Source: Candidatus Gastranaerophilales bacterium (lineage in GTDB: Bacteria; Cyanobacteriota; Vampirovibrionia; Gastranaerophilales; Gastranaerophilaceae). Taken from it: DNA of 64,000 bases. Position numbers and translations under genes: made by a program. Within the stretch, counting starts at the first letter, position 1; each line of letters starts with the position of its first letter. A model generated the notes under the pieces. It was not told where the DNA came from, did not search any database, and saw nothing but the letters and a program-made list of their open reading frames with translations. Positions 45,113-64,000 of this stretch are shown piece after piece. Where the stretch lies: contig CALVBS010000007.1 in the NCBI GenBank assembly GCA_944325865.1, forward strand, positions 1 to 64,000. The letters run 5' to 3'.

Positions 45113-45297
45113 TTAAAAATGCCCGTAAGGAACAACATCTTACACAAGCAGATTTGGCGATTGCTGCAAATGTCGGGGTAAGGTTTCTTGTTGCCCTGAA
45201 AAACGGAAAAGAAACCGCACAAATTTGGAAAGCCATAAATGTTTGTCGTGCATTGGGGATTACAATAGATGTCAAATCTCCTTATGAAAAAATTTAA
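45113..45297 (+). pseudogene. Decayed hipB copy without start
   Basis: An open reading frame equal to hipB (47725-47946) from about residue 13 to the end (KNARKEQHLTQADLAIAANVG...KSPYEKI), with Asp to Ala, Glu to Lys and Gly to Trp changes in the helix-turn-helix region. The first 12 codons, promoter and operators are deleted relative to the intact copy. It cannot be expressed as HipB from here. Confidence 0.8.
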
Positions 45298-45304
45298 GAG
45301 GTAA

Positions 45305-45540
45305 ATGTTGAGTAATTCTTTGAACGTATTTTTGAATGATAAACATATCGGAATATTAGAACAAGACAGTAATGGCGGTGTAATTTTTCAATATTTAAAC
45401 AATGCTGATAGAAGCCATTAGAAGAAAATGCACTCGAAAAATTTATCAACGAACTCCCCCTAAAACCATTGGCAACAGGGATTGAAGATATGCAATTATC
45501 TTTAGCCGGTGCACAGGATAAAACCTCTGCGATTGTTATG
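45305..45540 (+). pseudogene. Decayed hipA copy with internal and 3' deletions
   Basis: It begins like hipA (MLSNSLNVFLNDKHIGILE) and keeps the AAGAGGTAA spacer before ATG. After 'NADR' about 265 bp are missing relative to 48060-48324, putting a stop at the join. The next segment (PLEENALEKFINELP..LSLAGAQDKTSAIV) is in another frame and homology ends near 45540. 45541-45817 holds no gene I can support; only a short minus-strand fragment (MENQVETVKMIDMWLKF) that may be the relic of another gene. Confidence 0.8.
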
Positions 45541-47724: not shown

Positions 47725-47946
47725 ATGAATATAACAGATACTAAAAAACTGGGAACATATATTAAAAATGCCCGTAAGGAACAACATCTTACACAAGCAG
47801 ATTTGGCGATTGCGGCTAATGTTGGTGTAAGGTTTCTTGTTGACCTGGAAAACGGGAAAGAAACTGCACAAATTGGGAAAGTCATAAATGTTTGTCATGC
47901 ATTGGGGATTACAATAGATGTAAAATCTCCTTATGAAAAAATTTAA
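47725..47946 (+). CDS. hipB: HipB-type antitoxin / XRE repressor
   Basis: A 73-residue helix-turn-helix protein (KKLGTYIKNARKEQHLTQADLAIAANVGVRFLVDLENGKETAQIGKVINVCHALGITIDV). It lies 7 nt before hipA, the standard order of type II HipBA modules, in which HipB neutralises HipA and represses the operon through palindromic operators, here TACC-n-GGTA. A decayed copy lies at 45113. Confidence 0.88.
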   Translation: MNITDTKKLGTYIKNARKEQHLTQADLAIAANVGVRFLVDLENGKETAQIGKVINVCHALGITIDVKSPYEKI

Positions 47947-47953
47947 GAGGTAA

Positions 47954-49195
47954 ATGTTGAGTAATTCTTTGAATGTATTTTTGAATGATAAACATATCGG
48001 AATATTAGAAAAAGACGGCAATGGCGGCGTAATTTTTCAATATTCGACCAATGCTGATAGAATCTTATCTTTGAGTTTGCCAATTCAAAAAGCCCCTTTT
48101 GATAATAAACAATGCAGAGGATTCTTTAACGGATTATTACCTGAAAGCGAACATACAAGAATTGCTATCGGGAAAAAATACGGGATTAATCCAAAAAACG
48201 ATTTTTCAATTTTGCAAGCAATAGGTTATGACTGTGCGGGGGCTGTTTCATTTTTTGACAGTTCTGATGAACAAACACCTTCAAAATACTTGCAAGAAAC
48301 TTATGAAATTGATTATACACCATTAGAAGAAAATGAACTTGAAAAATTCATAAATGAACTTCCGCAAAAACCATTGGCAACAGGAGTTGAAGATATGCGG
48401 TTATCTTTAGCCGGAGCACAGGATAAAACCTCTGTAATAGTTGTTGACGGGCAAATAGGAATTCCCAAAAGTAATGTGCCGACAAGCCATATTCTAAAAC
48501 CAGCAATAAACGGATTTAATGAAACTATTGAAAATGAATTTATATGTATAAAAGCCGCTAAAGCATTAGGCATAAATGTTCCCGAAGCCAAAATCGCTTA
48601 TGCAAATAAAACAAAATACTTTTTAATTCAAAGATATGATAGAGAAATAATTAATAACAAAATAAAAAGAATTCATCAGGAAGATTTTTGTCAGGCCTCC
48701 AACATTCCAAGCGCATACAAATATCAAGCCGAAGGCGGTGTTGATTATAAAAGATGTTTTGAAATTTTAAGAGCCGCATCGCAGCCTGCAGTTGCAATTA
48801 ACCAGTTTATTCAATTAATGATTTTTAATTACTTGATAGGAAATAATGATGCCCATGGCAAAAATTTTTCTATACTGCATTATGACAATGGAGAAATAAA
48901 ATTTGCCCCTGCATACGATATTCTGTGTTCTCAAGTTTATCCTGAATTGTCAAATAAAATGGCAATGAAAATCGGCGGGCATTATAAACATGATGAGATT
49001 TTATTGAGACATTTTGAAAAATTAGCAAATGAAAATGATATCAGTTTTACTCAGTTAAAAAAGGTTATAAAAAATCAGTGCGAAACCATCCCAGGGATTG
49101 TCTCTGAGGTGGTAAACAGCTTTGACAACAAAATCGGAAAAGATATCTTATCAGTAGTACAAAAAAATTGTACTAAAATGTTAAAAGAATTTTAG
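47954..49195 (+). CDS. hipA: HipA-type serine/threonine kinase toxin
   Basis: A 413-residue HipA-like kinase. The N-terminal subdomain has VFLNDKHIGILEKDGNGGVIFQYS and FFNGLLPES. The kinase part has LSLAGAQDKTSVIVVDGQIGIP (P-loop-like), ENEFICIKAAKALGINVPEA, LIQRYDR, GNNDAHGKNFS (catalytic Asp299) and FAPAYDIL (metal Asp322). E. coli HipA phosphorylates GltX and halts translation. AAGAGGTAA is the ribosome site. The island position and the nearby broken copy suggest horizontal gain. Confidence 0.92.
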   Translation: MLSNSLNVFLNDKHIGILEKDGNGGVIFQYSTNADRILSLSLPIQKAPFDNKQCRGFFNGLLPESEHTRIAIGKKYGINPKNDFSILQAIGYDCAGAVSFFDSSDEQTPSKYLQETYEIDYTPLEENELEKFINELPQKPLATGVEDMRLSLAGAQDKTSVIVVDGQIGIPKSNVPTSHILKPAINGFNETIENEFICIKAAKALGINVPEAKIAYANKTKYFLIQRYDREIINNKIKRIHQEDFCQASNIPSAYKYQAEGGVDYKRCFEILRAASQPAVAINQFIQLMIFNYLIGNNDAHGKNFSILHYDNGEIKFAPAYDILCSQVYPELSNKMAMKIGGHYKHDEILLRHFEKLANENDISFTQLKKVIKNQCETIPGIVSEVVNSFDNKIGKDILSVVQKNCTKMLKEF

Positions 49196-49425: not shown

Positions 49426-49965
49426 ATGAATGTAGTGCAACCTATAAAAAAGATAGAAGATATTCAAAAGATTAAAAAATATTTGGCAAAAAAGCCAAGA
49501 GATGCATTGCTTTTTAGTTTCGGGATAAATACAGGACTTAGAATATCTGATATATTATCGCTTGATGTTGGGGATGTAAAGGGCCGAGATTATATTGAAA
49601 TTAGAGAGAAAAAGACGAATAAGTATAAGAAATTTCCACTTAATAGATTTTTGAAAGAGGAGATTGATTTATTTGTAGAAGGTTTGCCGAGTGCACAACC
49701 GCTTTTTTATACACAAAAACATTGCAGGTTGGATAGAGCACAGGCATATAGAATTTTGAATAAGGCAGCACAAGCTGTTGGGGTGAAGGAAAGAATCGGA
49801 ACACATACCCTACGCAAAACCTTCGGTTACCACTTTTACCAACAATACGACGATATCGTAATGCTGCAGAAGATTTTCAACCACTCCACTCCCTCCATCA
49901 CTCTACGTTATATCGGAATCGAACAAGAAGACATTGATGAGGTGTATCGGAATTTTTATTTGTAA
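49426..49965 (+). CDS. Small tyrosine recombinase (integrase catalytic domain)
   Basis: A 179-residue protein comprising only the catalytic domain: TGLRISDILSLDVGD (Arg39), GTHTLRKTFGYHFYQ (His127 and Arg130), IFNHSTPSITLRYIG (His153 and nucleophile Tyr162). All residues of the R-H-R-H-Y set are present, so it can be active, but the N-terminal core-binding domain is absent. Such mini-integrases occur in mobile and defence islands. It is convergent with the SIR2-like gene (3-nt gap) and marks the island's left part. Confidence 0.88.
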   Translation: MNVVQPIKKIEDIQKIKKYLAKKPRDALLFSFGINTGLRISDILSLDVGDVKGRDYIEIREKKTNKYKKFPLNRFLKEEIDLFVEGLPSAQPLFYTQKHCRLDRAQAYRILNKAAQAVGVKERIGTHTLRKTFGYHFYQQYDDIVMLQKIFNHSTPSITLRYIGIEQEDIDEVYRNFYL

Positions 49966-49968
49966 TAA

Positions 49969-50997
49969 TTATAATTTATAAAGTTCTTCATTAAACAATT
50001 TTAAAGACTCTTTGCAACAATATTTAAAATCTAAATCATATCCTTTAAAAATATTTTCATATCGATCTTTTGCATAACATTCAGAACCTTCATTTATCAA
50101 ATCTTCTGTATTTATAACATAAATCTTAGGGTTATTAGGATTTAATTTTAGAGCGGATTGAAATAAAAATTTTATTGCTAAATCTGTTTGAGGGAATGAA
50201 AAGCCATAAATAAATATTTTCTTAGCTTTTTTTAGGGACTCAAAAGCAATATTCCAACATTTTTTTAAAGTTAAGTTTTCATATAATTTAGTCTTATCAA
50301 GAACTGGAGGAATTATGTAAGGTGACAATAAAGAATTTTTGTATTCTTCCTCATATTGAACCAGGCCAGAAGTATTATAATCAGTTAAAACCCAGTTTAT
50401 CGAACCATGAAGTTTTATTATATTGGGCATTGAGCTTAGGTGGATTTTCCCTGCAGGTTTAGAATTTAGAACATCTAATTGTATATATTTGCAATCTATT
50501 ATTCTATATGGATTGCTTATAGGATAGTGATAAAAGTTAACAAATCCTCCTTGTATAATGGCTTTATTGTAAGCTTCATATGAACGATATATTAAATGTT
50601 CTAATAATAGATCATAGTTCAAGGTAATACACGGACAAGAGTTTTCCCAAATATAATGAATAATATGATTACAAGGTACTAAAAAATTTTGGAATTTACT
50701 TCGCATAGAATTAAATTTATTGGCAATCTTTTTTGAAATATCTTTATATAAAGCTTCATCTAAAGAAACTTGTACATCAGTTTTATATGGAAGGTTACTT
50801 GATAAATATGTTAATAATACTTCAATATTATCTTTATATTCATCAGGAATGTCTTTATTATAATGAATAGCGATTGAGCTTTGTTCTGATACATACTCAG
50901 AGTTTATTTCGTCTGTAAGATTTTTTAAATCAGGGTAAGAATCAGAAATTGCTTTTGAGAATCCTGCTCCTAAGAAAAACACACTATAATTACTCAT
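49969..50997 (-). CDS. SIR2-like NADase-type protein, third gene of a Hachiman-like operon
   Basis: A 342-residue protein of the defence-associated SIR2 group. VFFLGAGFSKAISDSYPDL (GAGFS at 10-14) is the NAD-binding loop, CITLNYDLLLEHLI (Asn127-Tyr128-Asp129) and IIKLHGSINW (His197) the catalytic pair, and IFIYGFSFPQTDLAIKFLF the closing motif. Such proteins often deplete NAD+ to abort phage infection. It starts 8 nt after the helicase stop and is thus co-transcribed with helicase and DUF1837 genes. The link to that system is by context. Confidence 0.82.
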   Translation of the reverse strand: MSNYSVFFLGAGFSKAISDSYPDLKNLTDEINSEYVSEQSSIAIHYNKDIPDEYKDNIEVLLTYLSSNLPYKTDVQVSLDEALYKDISKKIANKFNSMRSKFQNFLVPCNHIIHYIWENSCPCITLNYDLLLEHLIYRSYEAYNKAIIQGGFVNFYHYPISNPYRIIDCKYIQLDVLNSKPAGKIHLSSMPNIIKLHGSINWVLTDYNTSGLVQYEEEYKNSLLSPYIIPPVLDKTKLYENLTLKKCWNIAFESLKKAKKIFIYGFSFPQTDLAIKFLFQSALKLNPNNPKIYVINTEDLINEGSECYAKDRYENIFKGYDLDFKYCCKESLKLFNEELYKL

Positions 50998-51005
50998 ATT
51001 TACCT

Positions 51006-53378
51006 CTATCCAACAATTGTGTTGACATACCTTTCTATAAGTTCTCTTTTTTGTTCCGAAAGTTCAGTTATTTTAGAGTTAAAAACTATTTCATTATCAT
51101 CAATGCTCACAATATATTGTTTTATCCATTCAATATCTTCAAAATCAAATCCATATTTCATTAGCCAAATTTCAGTATTATCATTTGTTCCATATTTTAT
51201 AAAATTTGACATTGCTAAGGCTCTTTCATCTTTTGTTTTTTGATAGTATAAGTTAAAAGTAGCCGATAAAGGATCTGCTAATGCCCATGAAATAATTTTA
51301 TCAATATAATCATACGTATCCCATATTAAAATATCATAATCTATATTTTCAATTGTTTTATTCGTATCAAATAGGGGTCTGTTTGTAGCTTTTATATTAG
51401 GTATTAATGCAAATTTAGTACTATAATGTATTTTTAAATTTTCAATACGACTATAGCATTCTTCGTATGTAATTAAATTTTGTTTATATAATTTTTTTAT
51501 TTCTTGTTGTTGTTTATTTTCAGACAAGAAATCAAATCTTATTGATACAATTTCTTTAAATGTTTTACCTTGTATTCGCCACAATAAAATAGGAATAGTA
51601 GCACTTAATATAGCTTGTTCTCCCGTACCAAGTCTTTTTCTGCGCATATGTAATGTATAGATTTCTTTATAAATATCTTTTATTTTACGTTTTTGGGTAT
51701 CGGTTAGAATGTTATATTTTTCACCTTTTATCGGTTTTCCATCAGGCAAAAAAGTATCAAGCAAAAACTTAAGCTTATTTGATATATCAACATCATCTAA
51801 TGCTTCATTAATTCTATTTTTTTGTTTTTCTGTAATCCTAAGTTCATTATCAAAAGAATTGTGTTTAATAGCCTCTGCTATATCTTGAAAATCTTCTTCT
51901 ATAGCTTCTATATTACTATCAAGACGAGAAAAGTCGCTTATTCTTGCACTTCCTTTAAGCCTATTTATAAATTTATTTATATTAGATTTATGTATAATTA
52001 CATATCCATAATCAAAGTTATTGACATTTTTTGTTGTACGGCCCGCTCTGCCAATTAAATTTTTCATTTCTAAAAGTTTAAGTTCATCAGTTTCGCCATT
52101 AAATAAAAAATTTTCTATTAAAACAACATCAAAAGGCATATTTATTCCCTGTGTTAATGTAGAAGTTGCAAAACAAATTTTTGCATATCCGGTATTTACG
52201 AATTTTTCTATTATCAACCTTGCTTTTAAAGGTATTGATCCATGATGAATTACAATGCCTCTTTCCATCAGTTTTATCATTTGTGAATATTTCCTGCTTT
52301 TTGTTGCAGTTACTCCTAAATATTGCTTTAATTCATCAACTAAATTCAAAGCTTCTTCATCTTGTGTTTTCGAGCATAAGTCTGTATATTTTTTAAATGT
52401 TTTTAAGTACTCTTTTGAATATATGCTTGTTTTAGATGTATATATAAGTAGAGTACCATTATTATTTAAAATATCTTTAATAATATCAGTATTTACTGGA
52501 ATTAACTCTCGGGGCATTTCAAATGGACTAAAGTAGTAAAAATTATTATTTTTATCAATACAGGAGTATATCTTCCCCACAACATTTTGTGTATAATTTG
52601 CGGATGAAGAATTTGTAATAAAATCATGCTTTGTAAGTTGTGCTTCTGGATTTTCTACAAAGGGGTGTGCAAAAACTTTTGTAGAATCAGGAAAATAAAT
52701 ATTTATTCTTCTAACTAATGCATCAAAACGCATTCCTCGAATTTCTTCTTCAGACAACTGTGATTCATCAAATAAGAATAATTTTATATTTAGTTTTTCT
52801 ATATTTGCAAATAAATCATTACCCCTTTCAGGTGTTATTACATAAATTCTTCGTTTTGTATGCTTTAAATTCACTAATTCAACAAACTGCATAACTAAAA
52901 CGTCTTTGTCCAATTTTAAAATATCTAAAATTTCAAAAATGTACTCTGAAATTAATGCTCTTGATGGAACTACTATAACAATATCTCCATCTGTTTCTTT
53001 TATTAGATCCCTAAATAAAAATGATTTACCAGAACTTGTTGGAGCAGAAAATGAAAAATAAGATTTATCTTTAATATTTTTATACGCATCTGCTTGCATA
53101 GGAGTATATTTTTTACCAGTACTGTCTTTTATTACATCGGAATATATCGAATAAATCTCTTCGATGAATGATGTTGGTGGTGTTATTTTGTAAAACAAGC
53201 CCATAATATACATCAACCGGCTTTCATATTTGTTAAAAATCGTTGGATGAAAATGTTTTATATAGGACAATTTCTCTAATAGGTAAGAGTCTATTGGACC
53301 TCTTTTATGAAACTTGTCTATTATTTCTAATAATTCATTTTCAATATTTTCTTCTTTTATTATATTTTTTATAGTCAT
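51006..53378 (-). CDS. HamB-like superfamily 2 helicase
   Basis: A 790-residue Ski2-like/DEAD-type helicase: SAPTSSGKSFLFRDLI (from 111, Walker A), IVVPSRALISEYI (Ia), LFLFDESQLSEEE (DEAH-like, DESQ), GTLLIYTSKTSI, FATSTLTQGINMPFDVVLIENF (V) and LIGRAGRTTKN (VI). The C-terminal third is helical with no known domain. Its ATG overlaps the stop of the DUF1837 gene by 4 nt, the HamA-HamB order of the Hachiman anti-phage system, in which HamB senses DNA and controls HamA nuclease. Confidence 0.82.
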   Translation of the reverse strand: MTIKNIIKEENIENELLEIIDKFHKRGPIDSYLLEKLSYIKHFHPTIFNKYESRLMYIMGLFYKITPPTSFIEEIYSIYSDVIKDSTGKKYTPMQADAYKNIKDKSYFSFSAPTSSGKSFLFRDLIKETDGDIVIVVPSRALISEYIFEILDILKLDKDVLVMQFVELVNLKHTKRRIYVITPERGNDLFANIEKLNIKLFLFDESQLSEEEIRGMRFDALVRRINIYFPDSTKVFAHPFVENPEAQLTKHDFITNSSSANYTQNVVGKIYSCIDKNNNFYYFSPFEMPRELIPVNTDIIKDILNNNGTLLIYTSKTSIYSKEYLKTFKKYTDLCSKTQDEEALNLVDELKQYLGVTATKSRKYSQMIKLMERGIVIHHGSIPLKARLIIEKFVNTGYAKICFATSTLTQGINMPFDVVLIENFLFNGETDELKLLEMKNLIGRAGRTTKNVNNFDYGYVIIHKSNINKFINRLKGSARISDFSRLDSNIEAIEEDFQDIAEAIKHNSFDNELRITEKQKNRINEALDDVDISNKLKFLLDTFLPDGKPIKGEKYNILTDTQKRKIKDIYKEIYTLHMRRKRLGTGEQAILSATIPILLWRIQGKTFKEIVSIRFDFLSENKQQQEIKKLYKQNLITYEECYSRIENLKIHYSTKFALIPNIKATNRPLFDTNKTIENIDYDILIWDTYDYIDKIISWALADPLSATFNLYYQKTKDERALAMSNFIKYGTNDNTEIWLMKYGFDFEDIEWIKQYIVSIDDNEIVFNSKITELSEQKRELIERYVNTIVG

Positions 53379-54076
53379 ACTTCAATTCCTATCAAATATA
53401 GTTCTTTATGACTAAGCAAATTATTAAAATCTTTTGAGCGATTCAATATATTATTAAATATTAGTTTGGTTCTTTTGGTATTAATAGAAAATGCTGCTAC
53501 AAAAGCTCTTTCACCAGCTTCTAATCTTTTAATAATTTCATCTGGGACAAAATTCCTTAAATGTAATATATCCGCATAATCCTTTTCATCATTAATAAAA
53601 TCACAAATTTGAGAAAGAGCATCTTGATATGGCGTTTCGTGTCTTGAATATTTAGCTTCTCCAAAAGATATTATATTACTGTGTGTAATACTGTGAAAGT
53701 CAAAACCTGAATTACCAGAGAGTTTTTTCCCTAGTAATTCTGCCAAAGGAATATCCTTATGCTCTTTATATTCCCTTAATGCATCTTTTGCTGTCATTGA
53801 TACCAAGTATTCCCCAAAGTCTTCAGTTACAACATCTTTTACTTTGACAAGAATATTATTTATTATCTTATTAATTGTTTTTCTCGCTCGTGCTCTATAT
53901 GCTAATTTTAAGTCCGGAGTTAGCTTTTCTATCCAGCTATCATCGCGAATAGTATTAGTGATCTCATCTGCACGCTTTCTTATATCATCTATCTTGACAT
54001 GCATAATGTATACGTCACAGTCTGAAGTTTTATTATATTCCGATAAATTTACTTTTTCTAGCTTTACAAGTTTCAA
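53375..54076 (-). CDS. HamA-like DUF1837 nuclease
   Basis: A 233-residue protein with a PD-(D/E)xK-type core as in DUF1837/HamA: GFDFH (Asp126) and ISFGEAKYS (Glu140, Lys142), preceded by EDFGEYLVSMTAKDAL and AELLGKKLSGNS, and followed by a helical region (ALSQICDFINDEKDY). HamA cleaves DNA when its helicase partner releases it. First gene of the three-gene operon, divergent from the type I-like operon across a 171-bp gap. Confidence 0.78.
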   Translation of the reverse strand: MKLVKLEKVNLSEYNKTSDCDVYIMHVKIDDIRKRADEITNTIRDDSWIEKLTPDLKLAYRARARKTINKIINNILVKVKDVVTEDFGEYLVSMTAKDALREYKEHKDIPLAELLGKKLSGNSGFDFHSITHSNIISFGEAKYSRHETPYQDALSQICDFINDEKDYADILHLRNFVPDEIIKRLEAGERAFVAAFSINTKRTKLIFNNILNRSKDFNNLLSHKELYLIGIEV

Positions 54077-54247
54077 AATTTAAACCCTATTAAATACTCC
54101 CTACCATTATAATTATTGCTTAAAATTTATAAAAACCTTTAAAAATTAATGTTTATTTAATTATTTGAATGCTAAATTGAAAACCTCTTTACATTCATCC
54201 AATTTGCAATATTCATGCTAAAATAAGAATACACGAAAGGGTTAGAT

Positions 54248-56611
54248 ATGGCATTAAAGTTGGAAGTGCAGATTGATGGTAATAAAATTTATTCTCCATT
54301 AAGAGACAAATGGCTTGTGTTAACGCCGGAAGAACAAGTTCGGCAAAACTATATATGCCGATTGGTAAATGTTTACGGATATAGCCTTGAGCAAATGGAC
54401 GAAGAATTAAAAGTTAATAACGCTCACAGAGGACAAGGAAAAGCTAGAGCTGACATTGTTATTTGGAAATCTAAAGAAGATAAACAAAAAAGTAAAGCTG
54501 CTTTTATTGTAATTGAATGTAAAGCAGAAACTGTTAAAATCCAACAACAAGATTACTATCAAGGTGCAAATTATGCTGCTTGGTCTGGAGCAAGCTTCTT
54601 TGTAACAACCAATGCTAAAGAGACCAAATTCTTTAGAGTTGATAAAAATTCAATGCCCAAAGACTTGGATGAAATTATTGATATTCCAAATGCTTCAATA
54701 ATTAATGACCAAAAGAAAATTGATAAGTTATTAGCACAAACCAAAGCTTTTTCCAGAGATGAATTTGCAAAACTGCTTTTTAAGTGTCATTGTATTATTC
54801 GAAATAATGACAAACTCTCTCCGGAAGCTGCATTTGATGAAATAAGTAAAATCTTATTTATGAAAATAAGATATGAACGAAACCCGGATGAAGATGTATT
54901 ATTTTCTTTAGAAAAATTCCAAAAAGACGAAAAACATTTTGAAAAAAATATTAAAAAGCACTTACCTTTAGAAGCTCAAATACCTTACATGCAATATTTG
55001 TTTAAAGCAACAAAAGATGAATTTGCTGACGATAAGTTATTTGAACCTTATGAAACAATTAAAATTAAACAATATAGCTTTGAACAAATTGTAAAAGAAC
55101 TTGAAAAATATAACCTTTCAGCGACTTCTGATGATGTTAAGGGTATAGCATTTGAGCAGTTTTTAGGAACAACTTTTAGAGGTGAATTGGGGCAGTTCTT
55201 TACACCTCGTACAATTGTTGATTTTATGGTAGAAGTACTTGACCCTCAAGAAGGTGAAACGATTTGTGATCCTACCTGTGGTTCTGGTGGTTTCTTAATT
55301 AAGGCTTTTGAATATATCCGAGATAAAATCGAAAAAGATGTCGAACAATATAAAAAAGACTTAAAAGCTAAACTTTTTGATGCAGAATATGAAAAATTGT
55401 CAGAAAAAGAACAGCTTGAAGTTAATGAAAAATATAGTGATTATATTAAAAAACTAACAATTGATATAAGTGTGCCAAACAAATCTTATCATAAACAATC
55501 TGAAGCAGAGAAAAACAGAAGAATTTCAAGACTGTCATCAAGTTGCATATATGGTACTGATGCGAATCCAAGAATGGCAAGAACATCAAAAATGAATATG
55601 ATAATGCATGGTGATGGCCATGGCGGAGTCCACCACCACGATGGTTTGATCAACGTAAATGGAATTTTTGAAAATAGGTTTGATGTAATTCTTACAAACC
55701 CACCTTTTGGAGCAAGAGTTGAAAAGAATCAAACATTAACTACCACTGATATTGATATCCCCGTTAAAATAGATTTATCAAATACTAATGACGAAAATAT
55801 AAAAGAACAGATAAATTCCATTGACAATATTCAGCTGAGAACAAAATTATTACATTATTATGAACGCTATGGAATAGAATATTTAAAGAAATTAAATCAA
55901 TTAAATGATGATATTGATAAAAAACAAAAAGTCCTTGATAGGTTCAAATTAGGTAAAGTAAGCGGCTTAACAGAAGTCCTATTTATGGAAAGATGTTTAA
56001 ACCTTTTAAAACCTGGGGGCAGAATGGGAATCGTTCTTCCAGAAGGAGTTTTAAATAATTCCAACTTGCAAAAAGTTAGAAATTTCTTTGAATCAAGGGC
56101 AAAAATTCTTTTGATTACCTCTATTCCGCAAGATGTATTTATAGCTTCCGGTGCAACAATAAAGCCTAGTTTACTCTTCTTTAAAAAGTTTACGGAAGAA
56201 GAACAACGACAATACAACGATATTGTAAATCAAGTAAAAAAAGAAATTGATGATAAATATAAAGTTGAAATATTGGAAATTGATAACCAACTTTCTAACG
56301 ATAAAAAAGCTCATCAAAAAGCTTTAAAAGAAATAGAAAAACGCAAAGAACAAGAATTTGAAACAACAGGTCAAGAAAAAATTAAAGAATTTTTCGACTA
56401 CCAAATTCCAATAGCTCAAGTTGAAAAAGCAGGCATAACAACAACAGGAGCAAAATGTGAGAATGAGCTTGTTGATGTAGCAAATGAATTTAGAACATAT
56501 CGTCAAAAAAATAATTTGTGGCAAGACAATAAATTGGAGGTTTCATATAAGCTTGTAAACAATAACTTGGTACGAGTAATAAACGATGAGGAACAAGTTA
56601 TTGATGAATAA
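54248..56611 (+). CDS. HsdR_N-HsdM fusion: nuclease-like domain with N6-adenine methylase
   Basis: A 787-residue protein. Residues 15-105 match the HsdR N-terminal nuclease-like domain: LVLTPEEQVRQNYICRLVNVYGY, ARADIVIW (Asp69), FIVIECKAE (Glu90, Lys92), a complete D-ExK set. A helical HsdM_N-like segment follows, then the methylase: GQFFTPRTIVDFMVEVL, DPTCGSGGFLIKAF (from 341, SAM site) and NPPFGA (from 484, catalytic). The coiled C-terminus may contact HsdS. No separate HsdR helicase is in the operon. It could modify DNA, cut it, or both. Confidence 0.85.
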   Translation: MALKLEVQIDGNKIYSPLRDKWLVLTPEEQVRQNYICRLVNVYGYSLEQMDEELKVNNAHRGQGKARADIVIWKSKEDKQKSKAAFIVIECKAETVKIQQQDYYQGANYAAWSGASFFVTTNAKETKFFRVDKNSMPKDLDEIIDIPNASIINDQKKIDKLLAQTKAFSRDEFAKLLFKCHCIIRNNDKLSPEAAFDEISKILFMKIRYERNPDEDVLFSLEKFQKDEKHFEKNIKKHLPLEAQIPYMQYLFKATKDEFADDKLFEPYETIKIKQYSFEQIVKELEKYNLSATSDDVKGIAFEQFLGTTFRGELGQFFTPRTIVDFMVEVLDPQEGETICDPTCGSGGFLIKAFEYIRDKIEKDVEQYKKDLKAKLFDAEYEKLSEKEQLEVNEKYSDYIKKLTIDISVPNKSYHKQSEAEKNRRISRLSSSCIYGTDANPRMARTSKMNMIMHGDGHGGVHHHDGLINVNGIFENRFDVILTNPPFGARVEKNQTLTTTDIDIPVKIDLSNTNDENIKEQINSIDNIQLRTKLLHYYERYGIEYLKKLNQLNDDIDKKQKVLDRFKLGKVSGLTEVLFMERCLNLLKPGGRMGIVLPEGVLNNSNLQKVRNFFESRAKILLITSIPQDVFIASGATIKPSLLFFKKFTEEEQRQYNDIVNQVKKEIDDKYKVEILEIDNQLSNDKKAHQKALKEIEKRKEQEFETTGQEKIKEFFDYQIPIAQVEKAGITTTGAKCENELVDVANEFRTYRQKNNLWQDNKLEVSYKLVNNNLVRVINDEEQVIDE

Positions 56612-57938
56612 TAGTGCTTTTTCATATCTGAATTTTATTCACTTTTCACAGCTTAATCTTTGGGATTTTAAACGTTATATTTCAAAAGTTGTAAGTTCTA
56701 AATATCCTATAGTTAAGTTAGCAAATTTTATTAATGAAGAAAATAAAAAAATTAAGCCATTTGATTTTCCAGAAAAGAAATTTGAAATTCTTGGGGTAAA
56801 TAATAAAACGGGTTTGTTTGATGCTTATATAGAGGATGGTAACAAAATTAATCAGCCATATAAAATTGTTAATAATGGTTTTCTTGCATATAATCCATAT
56901 AGAATAAATGTTGGTTCAATAGGATTAAAAACAAAAGAACAAAAATATAAATATATAAGTCCTGCTTATGTTGTTTTTAGTTGTAAAAAAGATTTATTGC
57001 CTGAATTTTTGTACATTCTTTTTAGAACAGATAAATTTAATGAGCTAATAAGAGAGAATACAACCGGTTCTGTTAGACAAACATTGTCTTTTTCTTCAAT
57101 GGGGCAAATTCAAATACCTTTGCCACCACTGGAAAAACAAACAGAAATTATAGATAGATACAATGCAAAAATAAAACTGGCAGAAGAACAAGAAAAAGAA
57201 GCCCGACATCTTGAAGAAATGATCGATCAATATATTTGTAATGAGTTAAAGATATTTTCAACTGACAATGATTCTATTTTACCGGGAACCAAATTCTTAA
57301 CATTTGTACAATTAAAAAAGCTTTCAAGATGGGATATATATAATAATAAAAACACCGTACGTTCTGCAAAATATGAAATCAATAAATTAAAAGATGTTGT
57401 TATTGGAAAACCTCTTTATGGAGCAGGTGAAAAAGGGATCAAACAAAAATCAGATGTAAGGTATATAAGAATTACAGATATTAATGAAGATGGCACACTT
57501 AATGATGATTTTGTGACAGCTGCAAAAATCGAAGAGAAATATATTTTAAAAGAAAATGATTTTTTAATCGCTCGTTCTGGGAATACTGTGGGAAAAACAT
57601 TCTTATATAAAAAATATTTTGGAAAGTGTATTTACGCAGGATATTTAATTAAATTCACATTAAACACTGCCAAAATCATTCCTGAATACTTACTTTATTA
57701 TACAAAATCTTCAGCTTATAAAATGTGGATAAATTCTAATCAAAGAGCTAATGCACAACCAAATATCAATAGCAATGAATATTTAAATAGCCCAATAATT
57801 ATCCCACCACTAAGTACTCAAAAGGAAATTGTCGAAAAAATTTCTAATATAAAAAACAAGATTATAGAATTAACTAAATTAGCAGAGCAAAATCGCCAAC
57901 TTGCTCAAGAAGAATTTGAAAAGGAGTTGTTTGAATAA
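56604..57938 (+). CDS. hsdS: Type I restriction specificity subunit HsdS
   Basis: A 444-residue protein with two target-recognition domains, each closed by a long helix: IQIPLPPLEKQTEIIDRYNAKIKLAEEQ at mid-length and IIPPLSTQKEIVEKISNIKNKIIELTKLAEQ at the end. The two TRDs would read the two halves of a bipartite target. The start at 56604 follows GAGG; an ATG at 56586 is also possible. It overlaps the methylase end by 8 nt and the next gene by 1 nt, so all three are translated together. Confidence 0.88.
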   Translation: MNNSAFSYLNFIHFSQLNLWDFKRYISKVVSSKYPIVKLANFINEENKKIKPFDFPEKKFEILGVNNKTGLFDAYIEDGNKINQPYKIVNNGFLAYNPYRINVGSIGLKTKEQKYKYISPAYVVFSCKKDLLPEFLYILFRTDKFNELIRENTTGSVRQTLSFSSMGQIQIPLPPLEKQTEIIDRYNAKIKLAEEQEKEARHLEEMIDQYICNELKIFSTDNDSILPGTKFLTFVQLKKLSRWDIYNNKNTVRSAKYEINKLKDVVIGKPLYGAGEKGIKQKSDVRYIRITDINEDGTLNDDFVTAAKIEEKYILKENDFLIARSGNTVGKTFLYKKYFGKCIYAGYLIKFTLNTAKIIPEYLLYYTKSSAYKMWINSNQRANAQPNINSNEYLNSPIIIPPLSTQKEIVEKISNIKNKIIELTKLAEQNRQLAQEEFEKELFE

Positions 57939-60502
57939 TGGACAAACAGACTTTGCGTTACACATTTCTTTTATATTTTGCAGGACAATATGCAAAAAAA
58001 GAGGACATGGAATATGATACCCTACTTGAAATGTCTGATAATAATTATGATCTTTGTTCAGAAGTAGTATGCGATATGGTTAAAGAAGGACTTGTTTCCG
58101 GAATAGAACTTATCGAAACAAAAGCCGGTTATGCCATAGGACAATACCAAGGGAAATTAAAGTTAACATCCAAAGGTCTTAAAGAAATTATGGGATTATT
58201 TCCAGAAGAAAAGAAAGAAATTATTGATGAAATACAAAAAGGGAATAATTTTATAGATAATAAAGAAGACCTATTAGAAAATTTTCTTAAAAAAGAAAAA
58301 AATCGAATTTCTCAATTATCTAACGAGGATAAAAACAAAGAAATAATTGAAAAAATATTATCATATTTTAAATTCCTAAATGCCAATATTCACAACTATC
58401 CAGATGGTAAAATTAAAAGTTCTGAGATAAAAGAAAAAGTAAAAAATATTCTATCAATATATTATGAAAAAGCACCTCAAATCTTTGCTCAAAAAGTTAC
58501 AAAAGAAATGCTGGAAGATTATGGATACATCACTTTCCTTTATAAAAAAATTTCGCCAGATGAATATGATATAGATAAACTTTTAACTTCAAAAGGAGCT
58601 AGCTATCTTGAACAGTTAGAAAAAGACTATAAAGAAAAATTCGAGAATTATTGCAAAGAAAATAATATAAAATTCCCAGATCCAATAGGTTCTAATGCAA
58701 AAATTTTAAAAACCATTAAAAATTCTCCAACACAAAATGCTATTGAATCTGTCCAAAATTTTCATAAAATTTTTTCTAATGAACAATTAACAGAACTAAT
58801 CAAAAAGGCAAATATTGCTGATCGAGCAGCACAAAGTATTACTAATATAAACCCTATTACACTTTCACCTAATGTAATAGATGAAGTAAAAGAAGACAAA
58901 GAAGGTAATGAGACAAAAGGTAATAAAAAGAAAACATATACTTTCGAAGGCATATTAGGTAGAAATTGCGGGACTATAGTACCTTATTATGATTCAGAAC
59001 AAAGATTACAAGAAAAAGGTTATATTGTAGAAAATGGTATATATGTTCTTAGAGGTTATTCTAAAATGTCAGATCTTGTCGGAGCTTCTATTGTTGATAG
59101 TAATAACTATCAAAGAAAAGAAGATTTGCAACATATAAATGATATTAAAAATTTTTTACAAAGAAGTAAAATTTCTTTTTTGCCAGAAATTATTTTAGTA
59201 GCAAGAAATAATGTTAAAATTGAAGAAATTGATTTAAATTTAAAAGGGAAACAATTAGGTAGATTTCAAAACATAAATTATAGAAAAATAACAGTACCTT
59301 CAAAAAGTTTATATAGAGTTGATGGGAATCATAGGTTGGAAGCTTACGATGAAAAAGGCAAAGATTATTATATTCCATTCTCAATAATATTATGGCATGT
59401 TAATGAAGAGGAAAAACAAGAGGACAGCAAACAAGAGGAAAAAAATGCAATCGATAATGAAGCTTTTTTATTTTATCTTTTAAATGCAAAATCCAAACCT
59501 CTAACATTGGAAGAAAATATCAGTGGAATTGTAAAAAGTGATGTTAATGTTTGGAAAGACGATAACATTAGAGAAATAAATTTTATATTTCCATATCTAC
59601 GCGACATATATAATAGTTTAAATAATGATATGATATTTAAAAAATCTCATTATTTAGATAATGAAGGCCAAGAAAATGTGTGGAGCCAATATTTAAATAT
59701 CTTAAACGAAATTTTTAAAAAAGAAAATAATAGCAAACAGCCAGAAGAAGAATATAAAATTAGTTTTAATAAAGAACAATGTAAGGAAATTGTTTGTAAT
59801 ACTATTCTGTTATTAAATCAAACGACAAGATTCAAATATTTAAGAGAAAATTATAAAAAATTTCCACAATTAATTTTCTATTTACAGTATTTAAAAATGC
59901 AAGACAAAAAAAATGAAATTAATATTGAAGCTGACTTAGAAGATATAAATAATTGGGCTCAAAAATACAAGCATGATGACAGCTCCTTTGAGAATCCGAT
60001 TAATATGTATGAAAATGCTATGAGACAAATCCAACGAGGAGAAATAAATATTTTTGTTGCAATGCCATATTATAATGATGATACAATAAAACAATATAAC
60101 TCAAATTATCAAAAAATTGTATCTACAATCATAAAAAAGAATCCTAAATTAAATGATCGTTTAAAACTATTTCCAATCATGACTCATAAAGGCGAAACAA
60201 AGAATATCTTAAATTATATAGATAAGTGCATTGAGAATTGTCAAATTTTTATTGCTGATGTATCTGATGACCCATCAAAGAAGAATATTGTGAATCCCAA
60301 TGTAATGTATGAATTGGGAGTCGCAAGACAAAAAAGTAAACCTTGTATAATAATAAAAAATGCTAAGGATGATAGTGATTTAATTTTTGATATAAAACCT
60401 ATGTCAGTATATTTCTTAAATTTTGATAATCCAGATGTTAATTTTGTACCAGAAATGATTGAGCATATAGAAGAAATTATAAAAAAATATTATATATCAT
60501 AA
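57938..60502 (+). CDS. wHTH / DGNHR / NDT-TIR-like three-domain protein, candidate effector of the type I-like operon
   Basis: An 854-residue soluble protein. Residues 1-90: winged helix of the YjcQ type (CDMVKEGLVSGI..., LKLTSKGLKEI). Residues ~330-540: a DGQHR/DndB-ParB-like domain, with KSLYRVDGNHRLEAYDEK around 458-475 and a long charged insert. Residues ~700-854: a nucleoside deoxyribosyltransferase/TIR-like fold with NIFVAMPYYND, CQIFIADVSDDP and NPNVMYELGVARQK (about 786-799), where the Glu of YELG is the likely catalytic residue. Its ATG overlaps the hsdS stop (TAATG). I know of no described defence protein with this order; a nucleotide- or NAD-directed effector is inference. Confidence 0.68.
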   Translation: MDKQTLRYTFLLYFAGQYAKKEDMEYDTLLEMSDNNYDLCSEVVCDMVKEGLVSGIELIETKAGYAIGQYQGKLKLTSKGLKEIMGLFPEEKKEIIDEIQKGNNFIDNKEDLLENFLKKEKNRISQLSNEDKNKEIIEKILSYFKFLNANIHNYPDGKIKSSEIKEKVKNILSIYYEKAPQIFAQKVTKEMLEDYGYITFLYKKISPDEYDIDKLLTSKGASYLEQLEKDYKEKFENYCKENNIKFPDPIGSNAKILKTIKNSPTQNAIESVQNFHKIFSNEQLTELIKKANIADRAAQSITNINPITLSPNVIDEVKEDKEGNETKGNKKKTYTFEGILGRNCGTIVPYYDSEQRLQEKGYIVENGIYVLRGYSKMSDLVGASIVDSNNYQRKEDLQHINDIKNFLQRSKISFLPEIILVARNNVKIEEIDLNLKGKQLGRFQNINYRKITVPSKSLYRVDGNHRLEAYDEKGKDYYIPFSIILWHVNEEEKQEDSKQEEKNAIDNEAFLFYLLNAKSKPLTLEENISGIVKSDVNVWKDDNIREINFIFPYLRDIYNSLNNDMIFKKSHYLDNEGQENVWSQYLNILNEIFKKENNSKQPEEEYKISFNKEQCKEIVCNTILLLNQTTRFKYLRENYKKFPQLIFYLQYLKMQDKKNEINIEADLEDINNWAQKYKHDDSSFENPINMYENAMRQIQRGEINIFVAMPYYNDDTIKQYNSNYQKIVSTIIKKNPKLNDRLKLFPIMTHKGETKNILNYIDKCIENCQIFIADVSDDPSKKNIVNPNVMYELGVARQKSKPCIIIKNAKDDSDLIFDIKPMSVYFLNFDNPDVNFVPEMIEHIEEIIKKYYIS

Positions 60503-62911: not shown

Positions 62912-63024
62912 AATATAATAATTATAATTATTATACAAAAGTTTTAAACCATCGTTTATATGAATTTTAACTTGATTTTCTTTTGTCTTGAGTGATGAAT
63001 ACGACACCTAAAAAAGGAGGTCGT

Positions 63025-63249
63025 ATGAGTAAAAGTAAGAAATACAAGATTAAGCAAAAAGATTTTAGGAAGTTAGAAAAACTAGCAGAGCGGATCTACA
63101 ACACAGCCACTGTTATGGACTATTTTTGCAGGACGCAACAAGAGATTGAAGAGCTGTATAATCTTACCCCAATTGTAGAAAATTTAAGGCGAGATTCTGA
63201 TACTGTAAACGCATATTTTATAAATTATCCTGACAACAAGAATTTTTAA
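63025..63249 (+). CDS. Small charged hypothetical protein
   Basis: A 74-residue protein started at 63025, after AAAAGGAGGTCGT; the longer start at 62992 is inside the leader. A basic N-terminus (MSKSKKYKIKQKDFRKLEKL) leads to a helical body. It looks like small phage or plasmid proteins. The leader shares GAGTGATGAAT (62987) with that of the ORF at 63388 (63354). Confidence 0.55.
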   Translation: MSKSKKYKIKQKDFRKLEKLAERIYNTATVMDYFCRTQQEIEELYNLTPIVENLRRDSDTVNAYFINYPDNKNF

Positions 63250-63275
63250 ATGGTATTTAAAACCTGTTTTAATAC

Positions 63276-63297
63276 CGTTCAAAAAGTGTTCAAAAAT
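63276..63297 (-). repeat. Right copy of the 22-nt inverted repeat
   Basis: Reverse-complement partner of 49304-49325, 21 of 22 positions equal; two TTTTTGAAC units 11 bp apart on the minus strand. Confidence 0.45.
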
Positions 63298-63387
63298 AGA
63301 TTGTGTCTGAATGATACATTTAGAAAGAGTTTGCTTGATATTTTACTCATTAAGAGTGATGAATGTCATTGCTGATAAGAGGTAGCA

Positions 63388-63603
63388 ATGATTGAATTAG
63401 GCAAAAAATACAAACTTAAAAAGATTAAAGGCTTTAAAAACTCTGATAATGAGTATTACAAAGTAATTGGATTCTATAACTTCGACACTGTAATTTGTGA
63501 AAACTCCTACGGAGAAAGATTTGTATTTATGAAGGAGTTTTTAATAGACCCACAAAAGCCTGATGATATCTATTCAGATTTGATACTAGAAAGGAAAGAA
63601 TAA
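63388..63603 (+). CDS. Small hypothetical protein, first of a coupled trio
   Basis: A 71-residue protein with AGAGGTAGCA before the ATG. KYKLKKIKGFKNSDNEYYKVIGFYNFDTVICENSYGERFVFMKEFL reads as a small beta-barrel, like SH3-type DNA- or protein-binding modules. It ends in TAATG, sharing one base with the next start. Unknown family. Confidence 0.55.
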   Translation: MIELGKKYKLKKIKGFKNSDNEYYKVIGFYNFDTVICENSYGERFVFMKEFLIDPQKPDDIYSDLILERKE

Positions 63604-63803
63604 TGACAGAAAAAGACTATGCACTTTATGGCACAAAAATTTTGAATTTAAAAACACAAGAAATCGGTTTGCTTATTTGTATTTGGAAAAACAAGTTTGC
63701 CGATGCAGAGATAGATTATGCGACTTGCGTTGATAAGCAAGGCAAAAGATACAATATAGAACTTGATAATATAAGAGGGTTTGAAGATGATTTTGAAAAA
63801 TAA
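63603..63803 (+). CDS. Small hypothetical protein, second of the trio
   Basis: A 66-residue protein, start overlapping the previous stop by 1 nt. KILNLKTQEIGLLICIWKNKFADAEIDYATCVDKQGKRYNIELDNI is beta-rich, again SH3-like, similar in style to its upstream neighbour. Overlaps the next ORF by 17 nt. Confidence 0.52.
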   Translation: MTEKDYALYGTKILNLKTQEIGLLICIWKNKFADAEIDYATCVDKQGKRYNIELDNIRGFEDDFEK

Positions 63804-64000
63804 ACTAACAAGAGAAACCTTAGAAATATCATATACTGAATTTAGAAAAAAGTTTGCAAAGGAACTACAAGTAGCATTTGAAAGTTATCGCAGAACACAA
63901 TTGAATAAGTATTCTTATAACTTTAAAGATGACAACTCAATGGAATATAATTTCTACTTCCAATTACAATGGAACTTCAATCACTTTGGAAATTCCAATT
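63787..64000 (+). CDS. Hypothetical protein, 3' end beyond the window
   Basis: An ATG at 63787, within the end of the previous gene, opens a frame that stays open to the window edge (71 codons). It reads MILKNKLTRETLEIS, then a basic helical stretch (FRKKFAKELQVAFESYRR). Translational coupling is likely. No family recognised. Confidence 0.5.
   Translation, partial: MILKNKLTRETLEISYTEFRKKFAKELQVAFESYRRTQLNKYSYNFKDDNSMEYNFYFQLQWNFNHFGNSN

Follow-up and report, generated by a model that had tools for sequence, protein, structure and literature searches.

A divergent HamAB pair followed by a SIR2-like gene in a Gastranaerophilales defence hotspot

This analysis concerns three adjacent genes on the minus strand of a 64,000-nucleotide stretch of DNA (hereafter, the window) from a gut-dwelling Candidatus Gastranaerophilales bacterium (assembly GCA_944325865.1, contig CALVBS010000007.1, positions 1 to 64,000). 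Two of them, hamA and hamB, form a pair of effector nuclease and helicase of the type of Hachiman, a two-gene anti-phage system, and the third, located directly behind hamB, is a SIR2-like gene whose relation to Hachiman was assessed through its sequence, its genomic distribution and its setting within a variable defence island.

The hamA-hamB-SIR2 locus

53375-54076, minus strand: hamA-like effector nuclease gene, 233 amino acids, TTG start
51006-53378, minus strand: hamB-like Ski2-type superfamily 2 (SF2) helicase gene, 790 amino acids
49969-50997, minus strand: SIR2-like gene encoding a predicted NADase, 342 amino acids
53375-53378, minus strand: overlap of hamA and hamB, 4 nt, from open reading frame (ORF) coordinates
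50998-51005, minus strand: gap between hamB and the SIR2-like gene, 8 nt; a sequence resembling a Shine-Dalgarno site, AGAGGT, overlaps the hamB stop codon

All three ORFs are intact, and their coordinates agree with the arrangement of three genes, one overlap and one short gap described in the first-pass annotation of this DNA. The same 4-nt overlap of hamA and hamB was found in 39 of the 82 HamB relatives considered below and is typical of the family. No terminator-like site was found from hamA through the end of the SIR2-like gene, and promoter-like matches in this region were no more frequent than in shuffled sequence; the three genes are probably cotranscribed. Base composition is nearly equal in the SIR2-like gene (26.2% GC; GC at third codon positions, GC3, 16.9) and in hamB (26.5% GC; GC3 16.2), and GC content cannot set the two apart.

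The helicase is clearly of the HamB type and lies, as in Hachiman, directly downstream of hamA. It matches the PADLOC model HamB1 (E=4e-52), contains the Pfam domains DEAD and Helicase_C, and carries the motifs PTSSGKS, DESQ, QGINMP and GRAGR, while the profile of its family matches Ski2-type helicases and the solved HamB structure 8vx9_B (E=5e-18).

The nuclease had been labelled as DUF1837, an assignment that is out of reach of Pfam (PF08878/DUF1837), NCBIfam and PADLOC, none of whose models match the protein, so that family-level and structural evidence was needed. The family was represented by 43 sequences, comprising the window HamA and the HamAs encoded upstream of 42 HamB relatives. None of the 43 matches PF08878, and the PADLOC HamA models give weak matches in a few of them. 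Invariant across the set are W48, G88-E89, D126 and G139-E140-x-K142, present in the window protein as GE at 88-89, D126 and G139-E140-A141-K142 (GEAK). A profile comparison between the family and canonical HamAs from this phylum aligned the GE...D...GExK core of the two (hhalign E=2.7e-4, probability 42%). A profile search of PDB with the HamA family returned chance-level matches only, and fold comparison was used instead: the AlphaFold model of the window HamA (pLDDT 94.3) had as its top Foldseek matches in PDB the E. coli HamA chains 8vxy_A (probability 1.00) and 8vx9_A (0.99), the sole matches below E=0.001. Used alone, the window HamA found no relative in a pattern scan of genome contigs and nothing in a tblastn search against plasmids. 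From fold, motif and profile together, we conclude that the protein belongs to a divergent lineage of HamA; it has the HamA fold and the D-GEXK residues, and the missed match is a limit of current models. The lineage is widespread, with hamA genes in Bacteroidota, Clostridia, Alphaproteobacteria, Gastranaerophilales and others (loci L091-L172 in our numbering). The locus thus exposes a Hachiman lineage whose HamA is missed by current family models, and surveys based on such models may undercount Hachiman.

The third protein is a SIR2-family member with the catalytic Asn and His in a SIR2-like domain, matching Pfam SIR2_2 above the cut-off (E=1e-7) and PADLOC SIR2 (E=9e-13). Its motifs are GAGFS, T125-x-N127-Y-D129 (TLNYD) and K195-L-H197-G-S (KLHGS), with N127 and H197 invariant in eight aligned SIR2 sequences; the residue numbers given earlier for these two positions and for HamA E140 and K142 are correct, all four being invariant in aligned relatives. 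By both sequence profile and fold, the best solved-structure matches are the SIR2 subunits of SIR2-HerA (Nezha), and fold matches also include sirtuins and ThsA, although the predicted model is of low confidence (pLDDT 65) and the likeness to Nezha is one of SIR2-domain kinship only. No HerA gene was found in the neighbourhood of the SIR2-like gene that was read.

Distribution of the SIR2-like gene and of hamAB

The first-pass annotation had proposed a Hachiman operon extended by a SIR2-like component, and had itself held that rarity of the gene beside hamAB homologues, or a promoter of its own together with independent spread, would speak against this. HamB relatives were collected at 80 genome loci, found with an alignment of four HamBs, and at two viral loci (36-51% identity, many phyla), and the DNA fetched extended at most 6 kb past hamB, less where a contig ended, as several did. 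In 81 of these 82 relatives hamA stands directly upstream of hamB, mostly overlapping it, and the SIR2 family was found by profile or motif in the fetched flanks of none (0/82), with the profile built on eight close relatives, so that a very distant SIR2 could escape it. The gene was likewise missing next to hamAB at the eight further complete loci known from the family, Gastranaerophilaceae (six from the class sample, largely among the 80 loci, and two complete ones from the family sample; a ninth family match, G403, is weak, partial and without hamB), and near the 10 canonical hamAB loci found when the phylum was sampled. Among 383 genomes of the family, this kind of HamA occurs in 10 and the SIR2-like protein in 11, both together in the window genome only; the chance probability of at least one such overlap is P=0.26, hence the co-occurrence is at the level expected by chance. 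No three-gene HamAB-SIR2 system was found in the open-access literature of PubMed Central, which yielded only reviews and separate systems. Recurrent adjacency of SIR2 and hamAB was thus not observed, and a three-gene extended Hachiman is not supported; what stands of the proposal is a Hachiman pair and a SIR2-like gene with its catalytic residues, probably cotranscribed.

The SIR2 family has instead spread independently, as a portable accessory gene usually attached to restriction-modification (R-M) operons. Ten other genomes of the family have a strong match, and in eight of them the gene lies in or directly behind such an operon. Five relatives belong to or adjoin type I R-M operons (L061-L065), HsdM, HsdS or HsdR being confirmed by Pfam beside the SIR2-like gene at L062-L065, while that at L061 has an HsdS-like gene next to it, along with a restriction subunit of helicase type. 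In three others an MmeI-type enzyme gene has its 3' end overlapped by the SIR2-like gene; the enzyme is identified by Pfam at L206 and L208 and by the matching arrangement of genes at L207. The remaining two stand alone (L066, L067). These R-M-associated genes (L061-L065 and L206-L208) are the closest relatives by sequence, with 36-45% identity for L061-L065, and resemble the window gene in being co-oriented operon partners; they differ from it in that the partners are hsdMSR or MmeI-type genes and not hamAB. A further copy, 37% identical, was found on one phage contig, and a tblastn search against plasmids returned two distant annotated SIR2 proteins.

The MmeI-type restriction-methylation gene with its overlapping SIR2-like gene constitutes a conserved pair in its own right, seen in three genomes (L206, L207 and L208).

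The insertion slot and the reading of the locus

49966-54180, strand not applicable: variable slot whose content is exactly hamA-hamB-SIR2; the window is homologous to the sister island L080 as far as 49964 and again from 54181 onwards
49426-49965, plus strand: tyrosine recombinase gene, 179 amino acids, convergent with the SIR2-like gene; left border of a defence hotspot
54248-60502, plus strand: type I-like modification genes (hsdM with HSDR_N, hsdS, and a gene for a DGQHR protein), present in L080 without hamAB-SIR2

The window and L080 both carry the recombinase and the hsdM-hsdS operon, with HsdM 96% identical. Between 49964 and 54181, the 4.2-kb slot separating recombinase from modification operon, the window holds the three genes and L080 a 219-amino-acid ORF. 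At L012-L015, hamAB occupies a recombinase-bordered slot with the end of hamB about 8 nt from that of the recombinase, and no SIR2-like gene is present. In relatives this slot holds hamAB lacking SIR2, or else other defence genes. The trio thus looks like a one-off assembly, one cargo among the many of a defence hotspot, rather than a novel type of Hachiman.

We consider it likely that the locus comprises an ordinary though divergent HamAB pair, probably cotranscribed with an independent, portable SIR2 NADase module. In E. coli HamAB, the helicase restrains the nuclease and frees it on DNA damage (PMC12278908). By analogy, the DNA helicase HamB of the window would restrain the PD-(D/E)xK nuclease HamA, which would be released when HamB meets damaged or phage-replication DNA and would then destroy phage and host DNA. 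The SIR2-like gene would have inserted at the 3' end of hamAB, in the slot that separates recombinase from modification operon, and its product would act as a second abortive-infection layer, presumably triggered independently, and not as a third Hachiman subunit. Compared with HamAB of E. coli ECOR31 (PDB 8VX9/8VXY; PMC12278908), the pair shares gene order, overlap, D-GEXK residues, HamA fold and a Ski2-type helicase of HamB-type sequence; it differs in a HamA too divergent for PF08878, in a HamB of 790 against 1174 amino acids for 8vx9_B, and in the extra SIR2-like gene behind hamB, seen in the window genome only.

Several points weigh against this reading. The 8-nt gap, the Shine-Dalgarno-like sequence over the hamB stop codon and the similar base composition fit a jointly acquired unit. 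Relative to L080 the trio is exactly one slot and may have moved as a unit, so that SIR2 could be functionally coupled to hamAB in this lineage. In addition, its NADase activity is probable on the grounds of conserved motifs and a low-confidence model.

The most novel form of such coupling, in which HamAB would have recruited a SIR2 NADase as a second output of the same DNA-damage sensor, with DNase and NADase arms, appears unlikely to us. In such a true three-gene Hachiman-SIR2 system of this lineage, for which we would likewise give long odds, HamB would sense aberrant DNA and license two effectors, HamA as nuclease and SIR2 as NADase. The tight operon and the single insertion slot with exactly three genes would suit it, and there is a precedent in HamMAB, which acquired a protease-activated nuclease; in it Hachiman has gained an extra effector gene, HamM, alongside a protease-HamA (PMC12799240). 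However, in HamMAB the pairing recurs and HamA has usually lost its active site, and neither holds for the window: the trio has no counterpart among the 82 relatives, the eight other family loci or the 10 canonical loci, and the window HamA retains the D-GEXK residues that nearly all protease-HamA fusions have lost (PMC12799240). The SIR2 family, moreover, partners R-M operons and not hamAB. That preference, most relatives being members of type I R-M operons or following immediately after an MmeI-type enzyme gene, could be taken to tie the window SIR2 functionally to the neighbouring type I modification system, whose hsdM-hsdS operon begins at 54248, its place behind hamB being a mere insertion site; we find this quite improbable, since the gene and hsdM are encoded on opposite strands, over 3 kb apart, and L080, with its near-identical HsdM, has no SIR2 between recombinase and hsdM. 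It is very improbable, finally, that the pair is a different helicase-nuclease system and not Hachiman at all. The failure of the HamA family models, with weak PADLOC matches in few relatives, would fit that view, but the top Foldseek matches are E. coli HamA, the GE...D...GExK order is shared with canonical HamA, HamB matches its PADLOC model and the hamA-hamB order is conserved.

Seen in one genome alone, the locus would suggest that SIR2 is a third Hachiman component; lying side by side in a defence hotspot does not make genes into one system, and the comparison reveals a SIR2 family that is a portable partner of R-M operons. If the dual-output reading were true, it would exemplify the docking of a portable SIR2 module onto more than one DNA-surveillance system, Hachiman as well as restriction enzymes.

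Further features of the defence hotspot

A Gastranaerophilales defence-gene hotspot (the window, L071-L090 and L012-L015) has the short tyrosine recombinase as its left border. In its best full-length matches of the class sample the recombinase is 85-93% identical, and across 20 fetched loci and L012/L013 its conservation reaches as far as the stop codon, with unrelated sequence beyond, some loci sharing cargo. The cargo includes canonical HamAB, MzaBC, type IIG R-M, BREX, type I R-M and a viperin-like gene, and the right border is formed by a set of small genes (window 62992-64000, border near 62968). A role of the recombinase as an hsdS shuffler was considered and set aside, there being no long near-perfect inverted repeats to support it. 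The sequence at the end of the recombinase gene had few and weak matches as a repeated att-like motif within the window.

Downstream of hsdS, an 854-amino-acid DGQHR-domain protein is encoded at 57938-60502, with weak similarity to DpdB and Nuc_deoxyrib_tr and a 50% identical counterpart in L080. On the other side of the recombinase, a helix-turn-helix (HTH)/HipA gene pair at 47725-49195 is partly duplicated about 2.7 kb upstream, in two blocks that are 93% and 87% identical (duplicated regions 45113-45537 and 47762-48442), and intact, near-identical HTH/HipA pairs adjoin the recombinase in L084 and L090.
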